49,581 nt of DNA from an uncultured Parvularculaceae bacterium (GTDB lineage: Bacteria; Pseudomonadota; Alphaproteobacteria; Caulobacterales; Parvularculaceae): the NCBI GenBank assembly GCA_938015425.1, contig CALLPQ010000007.1, positions 1 through 49,581 of the forward strand, read 5' to 3'. Position 1 is the stretch's first letter. Each line of letters starts with the position of its first letter. Positions 5,480 to 49,581 of the stretch are shown one piece after another. The translations under genes were made by a program, and so were the position numbers. Under the pieces are notes generated by a model that was not told the DNA's origin, did not search any database, and saw only the letters and a program-made list of their open reading frames with translations.

Positions 5480-5603
5480 ACCCTGTTACGCCTGATTACG
5501 ACCCCCATTAAGAAATATGATTATATCACAATTTTTTAGAAATATCATCTGGCTACTGCACATTCATGTAAATTATTATACAAGCCCCCACTTTCAATCC
5601 CTA

Positions 5604-5787
5604 AGAGCCTAAAGGGAAAAGCGAGATAAGATATAAAACGCTATGGATCAGACGTTAGCTTGCCCCAACTCGTTACACCTCAGGCTCTCACTTTAAAGGT
5701 TTAGAGCCGAAACCGTGTGAAATCGCTGAAATGAATGTCTGATTTACACCCTGCTGAAGGGGTTTAACGATTTTGTTTTCAGGCTCT
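5604..5787 (-). repeat. AGAGCC element, copy C (full length, opposite orientation)
   Basis: The arms are 5604-5688 and 5703-5787 (85 bp each) around a 14-bp spacer. The conserved arm comes first on the plus strand, so the element is reversed relative to copies A and B. It lies 43 bp past the rpe stop codon and about 125 bp before the heparinase-like start, so a transcript running through would carry a long foldable RNA between the two genes. Confidence 0.87.
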
Positions 5788-14996: not shown

Positions 14997-15012
14997 CCAA
15001 CAGAGGTTACTT

Positions 15013-15117
15013 AGAGCCTAAACAAAAAAGCGAGATAAGATATAAAAAGCTGTGGATCAGACGTCAGTTTGCCCCAACGCGTTACACCTCAGGCTCTCAC
15101 TTTAAGGAATTAGAGCC
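15013..15117 (-). repeat. AGAGCC element, copy D (one good arm, one decayed arm)
   Basis: 15013-15097 is a complete 85-bp arm with AGAGCC/GGCTCT ends. A 14-bp spacer and a fresh AGAGCC at 15112 follow. The second arm is badly decayed; traces such as CACCCTGTTG and GGTTTACATCTG at about 15140-15165 align with the arm seen in copy C. The element sits directly after the symporter stop codon, in the same orientation as copy C. Confidence 0.8.
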
Positions 15118-15192
15118 GCATGAGTCATAAATCATAAGCCACCCTGTTGGGTTTACATCTGGACAAATAGTCTAGCCACCAAACACTTTAAG

Positions 15193-25878: not shown

Positions 25879-26026
25879 AGAGCCTAGGTTAAAATATATC
25901 TCCACATAACGGGATTCGATCAGGCTCACTTTTTAAAATATAGAGCCTTGGAAGTATTGGTTTGCGGCAAACGAACGTCTGATCCAATGCTTTTTACGTC
26001 TTGTCTCGCTTTTTCGATCAGGCTCT
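25879..26026 (+). repeat. AGAGCC element, copy E (shortened first arm)
   Basis: A full 85-bp arm lies at 25942-26026 with AGAGCC and GGCTCT ends and the shared core ACGTCTGATCCA. The other arm, about 25879-25927, has shrunk to roughly 49 bp but keeps AGAGCCT at its outer end and AGGCTC at its inner end. The element fills the divergent gap between the GNAT gene (minus, ATG at 25877) and the homocysteine methyltransferase gene (plus, ATG at 26133). Confidence 0.8.
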
Positions 26027-26076
26027 ATGAGATAAACACTCAACATTTCAATAATTATCCTTGTCATCACGTTATA

Positions 26077-41788: not shown

Positions 41789-43114
41789 TTAAAAAAGTAA
41801 TTTTTGCACAATCCCGTCTAACAAACGGCGGCCATCCTCGCTGGCTTTCAAATATTGATCCTTATACTCTAAATATCCTTGATCAATAAGCATATTCAAA
41901 TTTTTTCGCCGAACGCCATCATTAAAAAGATAGTCGTTCTGGCGTAGAGGTATACCTTTTTGCAATCGAAGCCCCATAGAAAAACGCTCTTGCATTTGCT
42001 GCTCTAACGACAAAATTTCGTGCTCCGCCAAACCATGGCCTGATTTTGCACAAGCCTTGAGATAATCAGCGGGTTTTAAAAATGTTTTCGTAGCAATACG
42101 CTGTTTTTCTTTGTGGTCCCAATTTCCTTTTATTAAAGTCTCTGGTATTAAAGTCTCTGGTATTAAAGTCTCTGGTATTAAAGTCTCTGGTATTAAAGTC
42201 TCTGGTATTAAATTCTCTGGCATCAAAGTCACTCGCCCATGCGCGCCCGGCCCGATACCAATATAATCTTGATGCTGCCAATATAATAAATTATGCACCG
42301 CTTCGCCGTGAGGTTTGGCGAAATTTGAAATTTCATAATGCGCATACCCCGCTTGCTGACATTGCGCCACGGCCAGCTCGTAAAACTCTGCCAGCTTGTC
42401 TTCATCAGGCATTTTTAACGCGCCGCGCTGTTGCGCCAATCCAAAGGCCGTTCCTTGCTCAATCGTTAATTGGTATAAAGAAAGATGGTCCGTCGATAGT
42501 GCAAAAGCTTGCTTCAACTCTTGTTCAAACTTTTCTAGAGATTGGGAAGGCAAACCATAAATCAAATCAAAAGTTACAAGGCCGATTTGGTTTTGCGCGG
42601 CCTCGATGGCCTTTTTCGCCTGCACGCCATTATGGTCACGCCCTAAAAATTTCAATTGGCCATCATCAAATGATTGCACCCCCAATGAAAAACGATTGAT
42701 CCCGATAGCCGAAAATTCATGATAGGCAGAAAGTTCAATATCAGCCGGATTAACCTCAAGGGTAATTTCCGCTTCATCCTCAAACCCCCATAATCTTTCG
42801 CATGCCTCAATCACCGCACCAAGCACAGACAAAGGCGCTAATGAAGGCGTACCCCCACCAAAATACAAGCTTGTTAATTTTCGCCCCCGATTTTGCTTCT
42901 GGTTTTGCTTCTGGTTTTGCTTCCGGTTTTTTCCTTGTGTCAGTTTAGCCCAATAATCCAGCTCTGTTGTAAAAGCTGTAATCCATACCTCATCATCTAC
43001 ATTACGATCTTTATACACATTAAAATCACAATAGGGGCAAATGCGGGCACAGTAAGGCCAATGCACATAAACCCCCATAGCATTAGCATCCATAGTTTTT
43101 TGGTGATCAACCAT
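41789..43114 (-). CDS. hemW: HemW-like radical SAM protein (heme chaperone) with minisatellite insertions
   Basis: HemW belongs to the radical SAM, coproporphyrinogen-oxidase-like group; HemW proteins bind heme and pass it to respiratory proteins rather than making it. The cluster motif CX3CX2C is Cys22, Cys26 and Cys29 (HWPYCARICPYCDF). Other family marks are SLYFGGGTPSL, LEVNPAD, NRFSLGVQSFDD and GIGPGAHGRV. At 441 residues it is long because of two low-complexity insertions encoded by tandem repeats: KQNQ-type at 42891-42926 and ETLIP-type at 42131-42220. It follows rdgB by 17 bp. Both insertions are in frame, so the gene looks intact. Confidence 0.93.
   Translation of the reverse strand: MVDHQKTMDANAMGVYVHWPYCARICPYCDFNVYKDRNVDDEVWITAFTTELDYWAKLTQGKNRKQNQKQNQKQNRGRKLTSLYFGGGTPSLAPLSVLGAVIEACERLWGFEDEAEITLEVNPADIELSAYHEFSAIGINRFSLGVQSFDDGQLKFLGRDHNGVQAKKAIEAAQNQIGLVTFDLIYGLPSQSLEKFEQELKQAFALSTDHLSLYQLTIEQGTAFGLAQQRGALKMPDEDKLAEFYELAVAQCQQAGYAHYEISNFAKPHGEAVHNLLYWQHQDYIGIGPGAHGRVTLMPENLIPETLIPETLIPETLIPETLIPETLIKGNWDHKEKQRIATKTFLKPADYLKACAKSGHGLAEHEILSLEQQMQERFSMGLRLQKGIPLRQNDYLFNDGVRRKNLNMLIDQGYLEYKDQYLKASEDGRRLLDGIVQKLLF
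42131..42220 (-). repeat. 15-bp coding minisatellite in hemW (six units)
   Basis: The unit TATTAAAGTCTCTGG is repeated from 42131, 42146, 42161, 42176, 42191 and 42206. The first five are identical and the last has one change. It encodes the pentapeptide ETLIP in tandem, located after the conserved GAHGRV motif and before KPADYLK, where other HemW proteins have a short loop. Confidence 0.95.
42891..42926 (-). repeat. 12-bp coding minisatellite in hemW (three units)
   Basis: TTTTGCTTCTGG occurs twice and then once with a C. On the coding strand it gives the charged, polar run KQNQ-KQNQ-KQNR between the N-terminal radical SAM motif and the strand TSLYFGGG. Confidence 0.9.
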
Positions 43115-45320: not shown

Positions 45321-46523
45321 ATGACACAAAATATCAATAAAGTTGTTCTCGCATATTCCGGCGGTCTTGATACGTCCGTTATCCTGAAATGGCTGGAAGT
45401 AGAATATAATTGTGAAGTGGTCACCTTCACCGCCGACCTTGGCCAAGGGGAAGAACTTGAACCCGCCCGCCGCAAGGCAGAACGGGCCGGCATTAAAGAT
45501 ATTTTTATCGAAGATTTGCGCGAAGAATTTGTCCGTGATTTTGTCTTTCCCATGTTCCGTGCCAATACAGTCTATGAAGGACAATATTTATTAGGCACAT
45601 CCATTGCCCGCCCTCTTATTTCCAAACGTTTGGTGGAAATCGCGCGCGAGACAGGGGCCGACGCCATCTCCCACGGGGCCACAGGGAAAGGTAATGACCA
45701 AGTCAGGTTCGAGTTAAACGCTTATGCCTTAAATCCAGACATCAAAGTCATCGCCCCATGGCGCGATTGGGATTTATCAAGCCGTGAAAAACTAATCGCT
45801 TTTGCCGAACACCATCAAATCGAAATTCCCAAAGATAAACGCGGCGAGGCCCCGTTTTCTGTAGACGCTAATCTTTTGCACACCTCATCAGAAGGCAAAG
45901 TTTTAGAAGACCCCGGCCAGCCCGCCCCCGAATATGTTTATCAACGCACCGTTAACCCCGTTGACGCACCAGACACGCCCGAAGAAATTACCATCAGTTT
46001 TTTGCGCGGCGATGCCATTGCCATTAACGGCCAACAAATGAGTCCGGCAGTTTTACTCACCACACTGAATGAATATGGCGGTAAACACGGTATTGGTCGC
46101 CTTGATCTGGTCGAGAACCGGTTTGTGGGCATGAAATCCAGAGGCATTTACGAAACACCGGGCGGCACCATATTGCTGGCGGCCCATCGCGGTATTGAAC
46201 AAATCGCTCTTGATCGCAATGTTGCCCATTTAAAAGACGAGCTGATGCCGCGCTATGCAGAGCTTATTTATAACGGGTTCTGGTTCGCGCCGGAACGCGA
46301 AATGCTACAAGCCGCCATTGATAAAAGCCAAGAGCATGTGGAAGGCGACGTCACCGTAAAACTTTATAAAGGCAGCGCCGCCGTGATCGCCCGCACCTCG
46401 CCCAAATCGCTCTATTCAATGGCCCATGTGACATTTGAAGAAGACAATGTCTACGACCAAAAAGATGCAGAAGGCTTTATCAAACTAAACGCTTTAAGAT
46501 TAAAGCTAGGGGCCAGAAGATAA
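45321..46523 (+). CDS. argG: Argininosuccinate synthase
   Basis: ArgG joins citrulline and aspartate using ATP. The 400-residue form from the ATG at 45321 starts [19 protein letters not shown], with the PP-loop [10 protein letters not shown] at the N-terminus; 18 extra codons upstream are not conserved. Other marks are [29 protein letters not shown] and [12 protein letters not shown]. Ribosome-site support is weak (AAAGAAG). Its partner argH is at 21375. Confidence 0.97.
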
Positions 46524-46869
46524 GATAAATAATCACCCCCATCTTGTCACCGTCGCCCCCTCCTATCACACCCGCCCCCTCCCGTCACCCCCGCAAAAGC
46601 GGGGGTCCATATCGAGACACCGACTCAAATCACATGAAAACTAACCTATGGATTCCCGCCTGCGCGGGAATGACAGATACCCAAAGCTCACCCCATCTCT
46701 GTCACACCCAATACGTCACCCCCGCCCCCGCCCGTCACCCCCGCGAAAGCGGGGGTCCACATCGAGACACGTGTCAAGGTTTCTCACAATTCCATTAATT
46801 CAATCGAAAATGGGCGGTTTGCCCCCTCATTACCCTTGGCTTTTGATATCGACGATGTTTTTGATCGCA
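46524..46869. repeat. Left REP-like palindrome cluster flanking the GIY-YIG gene
   Basis: Three 26-bp hairpin-forming palindromes lie here: 46584-46609, 46649-46674 (opposite sense) and 46734-46759. Two share the core CCCCCGC...GCGGGGG; the third is TTCCCGCC...GCGGGAA. They alternate in sense, like BIME pairs, joined by conserved linkers such as TCGAGACAC. C-rich tracts fill the rest. Apparent reading frames here are translations of repeats and are not supported as genes. Confidence 0.9.
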
Positions 46870-47157
46870 CTAATGATTGAGGCTTAAATAAAGATCATTC
46901 CATTTCGGGTTCATTCCCTCAATCAGATCGATTTTCCATTGCCTATTCCATTTTTTCATTTGCTTTTCTCGCGATATCGCCTCATCAATACGGTCATAAA
47001 TTTCGTAATAAACCAACCTATGCACCTTATATCTCCGTGTAAAGATCGCTCCTTCTCCTTGTTTATGCTCATAAACACGCCTGCCAAGATCATTGGTAAC
47101 GCCGATATATAATGTACCATTTTTTTGACTGGCCAAAATATAAACATAATAGGACAT
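46870..47157 (-). CDS. Small GIY-YIG nuclease-domain protein
   Basis: The 95-residue single-domain protein carries the catalytic signature: YYVYILASQKNGTLYIGVTN (GIY-type Y-Y, with the second YIG), then Arg in GRRVYEHK and a downstream Glu in SREKQMKKW. Family members are site-specific nucleases or DNA repair enzymes; many stand-alone ones are of unknown role. The ATG at 47157 is chosen because the sequence farther upstream (to 47280) is a translation of the neighbouring palindrome. It lies between palindrome clusters on both sides. Confidence 0.88.
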   Translation of the reverse strand: MSYYVYILASQKNGTLYIGVTNDLGRRVYEHKQGEGAIFTRRYKVHRLVYYEIYDRIDEAISREKQMKKWNRQWKIDLIEGMNPKWNDLYLSLNH

Positions 47158-47464
47158 ACCCATAATCATATGGGTTTGATGCCAATTGTCACTAAAAAAG
47201 CGGACCTTACGCCCTATCTCTGTCACACCCCTCCCCTCACCCTCGCGCAGGCAGGGGTCCACATCAAGGAACCGACTCAAATCACATTAAACGCAAACCA
47301 TGGATTCCCGCCTGCGCGGGAATGACAGATACTCAAAGCTCATCCCATAACTCTGACCCCTAATCCCGTCACCCCCGCCCCCTCCTGTCACCCCCGCGAA
47401 GGCGGGGGTCCACATTGAGACACCAACTCAAATCACACTAAAACGAACCATAGATTCCCGCCTG
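47158..47464. repeat. Right REP-like palindrome cluster
   Basis: Palindromes lie at 47236-47261 (degenerate), 47301-47326 and 47387-47412, with a half-palindrome at 47451-47464 that stops near the hairpin tip. Linkers such as ACCGACTCAAATCACAT repeat those on the left side of the GIY-YIG gene. The half copy forms the end of the neighbouring glycosyltransferase reading frame. Confidence 0.9.
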
Positions 47465-48529
47465 TAGAACCAGAGCATCTTTGGATTCTGCCTCTAAGCG
47501 GCATTGCGATTGCGGCGCGGTTTTGGGTTTGCGCGCTTGCCAGTCTTGCCAAATTACCCGCACAGCATAGAGCAAGGCTGGCCATATAAACAGTGATGCG
47601 GGCCATAACATCACACTGAGCAAAGCCAGATGGTAGCCAGGCGGGCCAGCGTGTTTTTCTTGGACGCTAAAGAGTTTGCCTCCCAGATCGTGTCCCAGAC
47701 TCGTGCGTAAAAACCCGCCATCCGTATGGATATAAATATATATCGTCCAAGGTAGCCAGAGTAGGACAAATACAATAATTGCGGGTTCATAAAGCAAGGG
47801 CCGCGCCCATGCCAAAGGCCCAGTAAAAATTCTATAACAGGTCAAGCATAATATTATGATAGCGGCTAAAATTGGGCCTTTTATCATGATTGACACGCCT
47901 AAAGCGATCCAAAATAACCAGATAGGGAAATGGGGTTTTTGGCGGGTTTTGTTATTTTGGGGCGCGTCTTGATGTTGATTGTCTTGGTGTAGATTATTTG
48001 GTGCGCTTTGATCGTCATAGTCTCCAAATTGGGCCTGTAAGGCCAAAAGCGCAGCAAAAAGCGTTGCGGATAATCCGCATAAAACCGCATCAGTTTTGGC
48101 AATATGGCCTTCAAAGATAAATAATAGGCTAGAGGCCAGTAGGGCTGCACTGATAAAGGCAAATTGCCGATCTATAATTTTCGCGCAACCCCAATAACTC
48201 ATGATCACAGCGAGTAAAGCCCCGAGTAAAGAGGGCAGCCTGTGCATCCATAGCTGTCTTACATTAGGTTTTGCATTAGCGCCGCCAAAAAGATGTATCA
48301 CTCCACTTTGCAACCAATAAATACCCGCAGGCTTTTTATGCCGGGCTTGGTCTTGGAATTTAATATTAAGATAATCCCCCGTTTCAACCATTTGGATAGA
48401 GGCTTGGGTATATCGGGCTTCATCGCGGTCAATAATGGGCAGGCTTGAAAAGCCTGGCAAGATTAAGGCCAAGGTCAACACACATAACAGGGCAATATGC
48501 TGCCATTTATGTAAAGAGAATTGAGCCAT
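47438..48529 (-). pseudogene. ArnT/GT83-type membrane glycosyltransferase, C-terminally truncated
   Basis: The 363-residue frame has the N-terminal half of an ArnT-like (GT39/GT83) enzyme, which moves a sugar from a polyprenyl carrier to lipid A or proteins. It shows the catalytic Asp-Glu motif LPIIDRDEARYTQAS, KKPAGIYWLQS and about eight hydrophobic helices. Full-length relatives have about 550 residues. The match stops at ESKDALVL, and the last residues QAGIYGSF are encoded by half a REP palindrome. The missing part should include the remaining helices and C-terminal domain, so activity is unlikely. A Gln/Asn/Asp-rich loop sits at about residues 180-200. Confidence 0.82.
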
Positions 48530-48702
48530 AGCGCGGAGAATTTCATGAATTGGCCCGCTTTATACGAGCGCTTGGTAAAACTGCAAGGCGCGCAACCTAT
48601 TCTGTCGATAACTTAATGGGACTTTTGGAAAAAAATATAGACATAGGTAATATGGCAATTATCACAACGATATGACAAAGCCGCCTTTATGATTTTATCA
48701 AG

Positions 48703-49221
48703 ATGGCCGCATTAGGGTTTGGGTATAGAAGGCATATGATAAATCTGCGCGATATGCATAAATTTATGGCCCAGCCCAGCGCGCCAATATTAGACCTCTG
48801 CGTTGTCGTGCCTGCTTTTAATGAGGCGGAAAATCTTGGCCCTTTGGCGGCTGAAATTGACGCCGTGCTTAAAGACTTTACCTATGAAATGATTTTTGTC
48901 GATGATGGCTCAACCGATAATAGCGTACAAAAGCTACAAGATTTAAAGCAGCATTATCCTACTCTAAGAGCGCTATCTCACCGCGTTAATGCAGGGCAAT
49001 CGCGAGGTTTGCATTCGGGTATTATCGCCGCGCGCGCCCCTATCATTGCCACACTTGATAGTGACGGGCAAAATGATCCCGCAGATATTCCTAGGCTCTA
49101 TCAAGCTCTTATGCGCGGTGAGGCCGCTGATAATTTGGCTATGATTGGCGGGCAGCGCCAAAACCGCCAAGATAGCTGGTCTAAAAAATGGGCCTCACGG
49201 AAAACAAAATACGTCATCTGA
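48703..49221 (+). pseudogene. GT2 glycosyltransferase (DPM1/ArnC-like), C-terminally truncated
   Basis: The 172-residue frame encodes a GT2 domain with VVVPAFNEAENL, FVDDGSTDNS, NAGQSRGLHSGI and the metal motif TLDSDGQNDP. Homologues continue past IGGQRQNRQDSWSKKWASR for another 70-80 residues including the acceptor region; here the frame becomes KTKYVI and stops at 49221. The break falls at about 49200, where the sequence switches to AT-rich DNA without similarity. The true start may be the ATG at 48736 (AGAAGG upstream). It is divergent from the ArnT-like gene, so both genes of one sugar-transfer pathway are broken. Confidence 0.8.
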
Positions 49222-49581
49222 AACCCGTCTATACTTCCTTGTTTTCACTAATGGTTGGACATTTGGAAATGTGTGAGAAGTTTGAAAAATTTCTTATCTC
49301 TATTGTTCTTGGAAACAATCCTGGATAATCCTGATGTCCCATGTCCCTTACGTCTTTTCGGTTTTTTAAACAAGTGAATAGACCTTTGGTTTTTGTTTTT
49401 GTATAATTTGGCATATGCAGCGATGCTACAAAATATATTTATCAAAACAAAAGAATATCATTAAATTGCGTCATAATGTTTTGCTAACGATCTCCTCCGC
49501 GAATTTTGCAGTACCTCTGTATACACCGTTGACAACTGAGTTAGTTGACCAAAAGCACTTTTGACCTTTTCTGAAATTTAT
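49222..49581. other. AT-rich right-edge segment without a recognised gene
   Basis: The sequence from about 49201 on has no supported gene, and its composition is AT-richer than the neighbouring GT2 gene. A 38-codon open stretch on the minus strand reaches the window edge but has no start or recognised family. The segment may belong to an inserted element or to a different assembly path. Confidence 0.4.

Follow-up and report, generated by a model that had tools for sequence, protein, structure and literature searches.

The window, by which we mean the whole stretch of DNA that was analysed (49,581 bases), is the complete contig C7 from a 2.55-Mb draft genome that is 78% complete and distributed over 183 contigs. 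Towards its right-hand end the window contains argG, an array of short palindromes surrounding a small gene of the GIY-YIG type, and the truncated, divergent genes of an ArnT-like protein (PMT family) and a family 2 glycosyltransferase (GT2). The coordinates are collected in Table 1. At 86% identity the argG gene is like those of the family to which the genome itself belongs (f1), and it anchors the contig to its host. Two other kinds of repeat were seen in the window. A MITE-like family of 100–134 nt with AGAGCCT... ends occurs in both orientations (1–372, 5593–5787, 15010–15133 and 25930–26033), with one copy sitting at the contig start (1–372), and a 15-nt unit (TATTAAAGTCTCTGG) forms a tandem array at 42116–42250.

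Table 1. Features in the right-hand part of the window
Feature	Position	Strand	Remark
argG	45321–46523	+	86% identity to genomes from same family
CGTC REP, stem ACCCCCGC	46584–46609	+	strict pattern
CGTC REP, stem ATTCCCGC; dimer with 46584	46649–46674	−	strict pattern
CGTC REP downstream of GIY-YIG gene, usual inward orientation	46734–46759	+	strict pattern
Predicted GIY-YIG nuclease gene (UPF0213-like)	46870–47151	−	Pfam PF01541, E = 1.6e-18
Degenerate CGTC REP	47236–47261	+	missed by strict pattern; read from sequence
CGTC REP, stem ATTCCCGC, upstream of GIY-YIG gene	47301–47326	−	strict pattern
CGTC REP, stem ACCCCCGC; partner of cut half palindrome	47387–47412	+	strict pattern
Half CGTC-type REP palindrome, left arm ATTCCCGC plus CTG	47454–47464		18/19 against intact copy; right arm absent
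Junction of host REP array and putatively foreign ArnT/GT2 fragment	47464/47465		repeat match ends; coding frame reads through
Truncated ArnT-like frame (PMT family)	48529–47438	−	last eight codons in REP arm, loop and spacer
Truncated GT2, divergent partner of ArnT	48703–49199	+	homology stops near 49199
3′ end of frame without assignment, at contig end	49471–49581	−	tail from 49200 has 34% GC

The palindrome array and the break at 47464/47465

According to the available text of a published survey (PMC3733652), REPs of the CGTC-1 family carry a CGTC or TGTC tag, an 8-bp stem starting with A, a 4-nt loop and a CCA tail. They occur mostly as head-to-head dimers, are abundant in Alphaproteobacteria, take in the Neisseria dRS3 and Rickettsia RPE-6 repeats, and seem to be without a dedicated transposase. 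The palindromes in the window share the GTC tag, the stem, the loop, the tail and the dimeric arrangement with the REPs described there. In the copies at 46649 and 47301 the minus strand gives TGTC-ATTCCCGC. Stems of 8 bp starting with A enclose a 4-nt loop in both versions of the repeat (ATTCCCGC-GCAG-GCGGGAAT and ACCCCCGC-GAAG-GCGGGGGT), and in intact copies the stem is followed by the tail (GCGGGAAT-CCA). Head-to-head dimers are formed by 46584(+) with 46649(−), by 47236(+) with 47301(−), and by 47387(+) with the cut copy (−). The palindromes thus match the CGTC-1 family.

The outermost palindrome is present only by half. Bases 47446–47464 (AACCATAGATTCCCGCCTG) are the same as those of the intact copy at 47296–47314 in 18 of 19 positions (95%), and the larger stretch 47364–47449 is 86% identical to 46561–46646. 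Because the half palindrome closes this longer repeat unit, a chance match is excluded. Intact copies read ATTCCCGC-CTGC-GCGGGAAT, the matched stretch being continued there by the right arm (CGCGGGAATGACAG). In the cut copy the arm (47454–47461) is followed by CTG (47462–47464), three bases of the four-base loop, at which point the repeat match stops and the sequence switches to TAGAACCAGAGC. The break is therefore inside the loop, one base beyond its centre, which confirms the claim of the sequence-only reading that the palindrome is broken at its hairpin tip. There is no right arm past 47464, and a search for the missing arm gave no significant alignment at 49199 or from there on to the contig end. 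The CCA tail of the intact copies is CTA in the cut copy.

The ArnT-like frame reads through this break. On the minus strand it ends with GAA TCC AAA GAT GCT CTG GTT CTA / CAG GCG GGA ATC TAT GGT TCG TTT TAG, so that the protein ends with ...ESKDALVL followed by QAGIYGSF and the stop. The last eight codons had been taken as the inner half of the palindrome; this is correct for the first four (CAG GCG GGA ATC), which lie in the arm and loop, but the last four (TAT GGT TCG TTT) belong to the REP tail and spacer. Similarly, the coding match had been taken to extend to ESKDALVL. The frame does run into the REP, but reliable homology to ArnT ends slightly earlier, with alignments stopping at residues 323–341. 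As the stop codon that the frame meets inside the REP is there by chance only, the short protein would be the product of a broken gene and not one with a designed end.

The ArnT/GT2 fragment and the contig tail

The ArnT-like product has 363 residues, compared with 568–603 in relatives, and lacks the C-terminal part of a functional full-length ArnT (about 570 residues). The GT2 product is similarly short, with 172 residues compared with approximately 255. The divergent ArnT/GT2 pair is intact in relatives and also on another contig of the same genome (C30). As both genes in the window are cut, the stretch between 47465 and about 49199 represents a fragment with a break at each end. When the assembly was searched for the lost halves of the two genes, only the intact C30 paralogues were matched. 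The sequence at 49200–49581 is unlike either flanking part, and no other copies of the tail (49190–49581) were found in the assembly.

A tree built from 40 ArnT proteins places the fragment in the clade of another family of the order (f5), with support of 100/98, and the C30 copy in the f1 clade (98/89), that of the genome's own family. Of 418 windows of 1.7 kb from the same genome, no more than 1.9% attain the dinucleotide signature of the fragment, although the genome's own C30 region too has windows with an odd signature; the GC content, GC3 and codon usage of the fragment are ordinary for the host. The search for an intact ArnT closely related to the fragment gave matches of approximately 50–60% identity at best, none of them close. 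In none of the sampled f1 relatives did argG adjoin an ArnT gene, a GT2 gene or a closely similar GIY-YIG gene, and the region 46540–49581 gave no match to plasmids. We also considered an in-place deletion within an ancestral argG–ArnT neighbourhood; this was rejected, as ArnT stands beside argG in no sampled relative from the same family.

The f5 phylogeny of ArnT against the f1 affinity of argG, the dinucleotide signature and the absence of the fragment beside argG in f1 relatives together argue that the fragment is foreign. The sequence-only reading had described a gene that ends inside a palindrome. The end of the gene does lie within the palindrome, but this is not a case of a native gene cut by a palindrome, the gene being part of a foreign fragment with a break at either side. 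The fragment side of the junction comprises the last 2.1 kb of the draft contig, and since the fragment reaches the contig end, it is compatible with both the horizontal insertion of a gene fragment and a chimeric contig. Whether the join arose within the cell or during assembly is, in our estimate, a roughly even matter.

The GIY-YIG gene and its association with CGTC REPs

The gene at 46870–47151 is the sole Pfam GIY-YIG match in the assembly and has the REP array on both sides. Five residues of active-site type (Y6, Y17, R27, H31 and E64) are conserved in 83 of 83 aligned rows, and the product is predicted to be a GIY-YIG nuclease. It resembles the UPF0213 GIY-YIG proteins of known structure (PDB 1zg2 and 1ywl, both labelled hypothetical) in being a single domain of about 90–110 residues.

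We examined 82 GIY-YIG loci, consisting of the window's own, the matches of a class-wide search, records from a plasmid collection, and more copies and genomes that the same search supplied. REPs were scored by a strict rule (GTC, an 8-bp stem starting with A, a loop of 3–7 nt, then CCA) up to a distance of 250 bp from the gene. By this rule a REP lies within that distance in 48 of the 82 loci, which are partly non-independent as some share a genome or come from related genomes. Inward-facing REPs were found upstream in 36 loci, downstream in 36 and on both sides in 29, the last group thus having inverted ends of the kind expected for a transposable element. A REP in the wrong orientation alone was seen upstream in four loci and downstream in four. 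Of the 29 loci with inward REPs on both sides, 21 have left and right stems that are alike; when left and right sides were paired at random, the mean was 4.2 and the maximum in 1000 shuffles was 11. Inward, stem-matched CGTC REPs were noted around the gene at 46870–47151 and in loci L278–L319 and L326–L367.

The REPs are concentrated around the genes, with 110 in the 41 kb closest to them and 23 in the 128 kb farther away. Under the same rule, REPs were found in 0/29 argG loci, 1/38 ArnT loci and 2/80 further ArnT loci, compared with 21/29 of the class-wide GIY-YIG loci, the control loci being other genes in partly other genomes. The remaining 34 of the 82 loci have no strict REP, and several of these have variant palindromes in the corresponding places. 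Outside the strict pattern, the Neisseria copy of the GIY-YIG gene lies within an array of dRS3 repeats, and in Aeromonas too the gene has palindromes on both sides. Relatives of this gene in many bacteria lie between matching palindromes, and on that account the protein is a candidate enzyme for the spread of these REPs. The available text of the CGTC-1 survey (PMC3733652) does not mention GIY-YIG, whereas here inward REPs bracket the GIY-YIG gene with stems that match locus by locus. In the open-access literature searched we found nothing that ties GIY-YIG to dRS3 or to repetitive extragenic palindromic sequences, which is no proof of novelty.

The distribution of the unit suggests that it moves. 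In Azospirillum lipoferum 4B, a REP dimer, the GIY-YIG gene and a second REP dimer sit between sufB and sufC, and in relatives with flanks that are 95–96% identical the same site has neither the GIY-YIG gene nor a palindrome. Among Shinella plasmids, the GIY-YIG unit is present in some and missing in others. Both cases have the pattern of presence and absence characteristic of a transposable element. Neither a clean duplication of the target nor an exact insertion boundary was found when the Azospirillum and Shinella insertions were compared with the empty sites, because the intergenic DNA around the empty sites has diverged.

There are also signs that the unit decays. One REP pair of Sinorhizobium meliloti Ak57 (L311, 1167–1350), which adjoins an intact unit, still has between its two REPs a C-terminal remnant, 26 residues long, of a GIY-YIG gene. 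The sequence of this pair and its remnant indicates that it is a deleted derivative of a GIY-YIG unit. In Sinorhizobium sp. C101, the site that has two units in Ak57 is occupied by a single palindrome, the left part of which corresponds to the left REP and the right part to the right REP (L323, near 667–700). This composite can be read as the result of recombination between two REPs.

The arrangement may be compared with that of the REPtron, in which the gene for a RAYT (TnpA-REP) protein, a Y1 HuH enzyme, is flanked by inverted REPs with a GTAG tag, and short REP pairs occur elsewhere in the genome. The two have in common a single enzyme gene between inverted REPs, together with short REP pairs. 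Unlike the REPtron, the window has a gene for a predicted GIY-YIG nuclease with CGTC REPs, and no Y1 HuH gene lies between the REPs.

Palindrome tips and the origin of the join

To place the break in context, palindromes were searched for by their exact left arms, a search that sees breaks past the left arm and not within it. Each of the eight exact left arms (TGGATTCCCGC) in the host genome has a right arm after it. In a relative (G001), the right arm is at the usual distance after 36 of 49 exact left arms and foreign sequence is held in the tip of the other 13. In 11 of these a second palindrome (CCCCCGATCAGGTCGGGG) stands in place of the loop, one has a composite of ~74 nt and one has an insertion sequence (IS) of ~1 kb; searching from the right arm gives more copies of the composite. 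The IS (C5:106546–107596, locus L263) encodes an rve transposase and lies in the loop of a REP-like palindrome with a 6-bp target duplication, CCTTCG. The disruption is at the tip in the disrupted G001 palindromes, and in those that were read through to the end an insertion has left the far arm in place. These insertions indicate that the tips are real insertion points in the family. Palindromes of G001 are also nested within the tips of others, up to three levels deep, with one hybrid occurring 11 times (L223–L233, L262). Partial palindromes in 394 kb of G001 were matched at the level of the Markov control, and consequently only the exact-arm cases were used for this genome. The exact-arm search revealed no plain half palindrome like that of the window in the host genome or G001, and 50 kb of S. 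meliloti contained no half REPs.

Several explanations of the join have to be weighed. The last 2.1 kb may come from another organism of the sample and have been joined at the repeat by the assembler or through a chimeric read, with no biology at the tip. We take this to be a serious contender, somewhat short of an even chance. It fits an incomplete, highly divided draft genome with the fragment at the end of a window that is a whole contig, as well as the foreign ArnT phylogeny, the breakage of both genes, the unusual dinucleotide signature and the tail of 34% GC. Against it, the fragment matches the host in codon usage, GC and GC3, and at the junction no common sequence is visible of a length that could lead an assembler astray. 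A different route would have an IS enter the palindrome tip and later cause a deletion or replacement in which the IS was lost together with the right arm and the ArnT/GT2 fragment was introduced. REPs are known targets of IS elements (ISRm22, IS621, ISPpu9 and others), in one case at the palindrome axis (PMC1525189). The G001 element is like them in lying at or near the axis, and provides a precedent from the same family. The window junction differs from such cases in having no IS and no second arm, and as there is no IS remnant and the ArnT coding sequence begins immediately, we regard this route as improbable.

The sequence-only reading had seen the break as a possible scar of the palindrome's mobility, produced by hairpin cleavage followed by joining or deletion. 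On this model, the folded palindrome would have been cut at its tip, by a hairpin nuclease or the REP-associated GIY-YIG enzyme, and the end joined to other DNA. Parts of this stand: the break is in the loop, and a plausible mobility enzyme, a nuclease gene tied to this class of REP, lies within the array. The foreign sequence in G001 tips and the collapse in C101 of a REP pair to one palindrome made from parts of both could also be brought in its favour. However, the window provides a single event, and with ~10 of ~150 possible break points per repeat unit lying in a loop, such a position has a chance of ~7% by proportion. Moreover, the G001 tips that were examined keep the far arm and resemble insertions, the C101 collapse is also explained by recombination between direct-repeat arms, and no second plain half palindrome was found here or in the 50 kb of S. 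meliloti. Cleavage of a hairpin is therefore an unlikely origin for this particular join. As for the array itself, the GIY-YIG genes could merely be sitting as passengers in REP-rich intergenic DNA.

The account that we favour, with rather more confidence than doubt, is that the array represents the remains of a REP-GIY-YIG-REP mobile unit together with derived dimers, and that its outer REP was cut and became joined to a foreign fragment. The half palindrome would then be the cut outer end of a CGTC REP array around the GIY-YIG gene, and the array itself most likely what is left of a small mobile unit with its palindromes facing inward. The REP dimers may derive, at least partly, from REP-GIY-YIG-REP through internal deletion. 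At 47464/47465 the last REP would have been joined to a foreign fragment carrying the 5′ halves of ArnT and GT2, and this would require illegitimate joining alone, whether cellular or a product of assembly. We infer that the nuclease mobilises REPs; its probable action would be to nick or cut the palindrome in its folded form.

In a wider form of this proposal, which we consider evenly balanced between true and false, GIY-YIG would be the dedicated mobility enzyme of CGTC REPs, including the dRS3 repeats of Neisseria. REP-GIY-YIG-REP would be the autonomous form and the dimers its internal deletions, with the enzyme acting on the folded palindrome and exchange taking place at or near the tip.

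The junction matters less than the link between GIY-YIG genes and REPs, and would be ordinary to a specialist. It does serve as a warning that a gene end within a repeat at the edge of a contig could be of foreign origin or an artefact. CGTC REPs occur widely among Alphaproteobacteria and, in the form of dRS3, in Neisseria, and the survey of the family, in its available text, reports no dedicated transposase (PMC3733652). A nuclease gene bracketed by REPs with matched stems, together with a derivative that still holds a remnant of the gene, offers a concrete candidate for how CGTC REPs spread. If true, the link between GIY-YIG and CGTC REPs makes the spread of these repeats a testable question.
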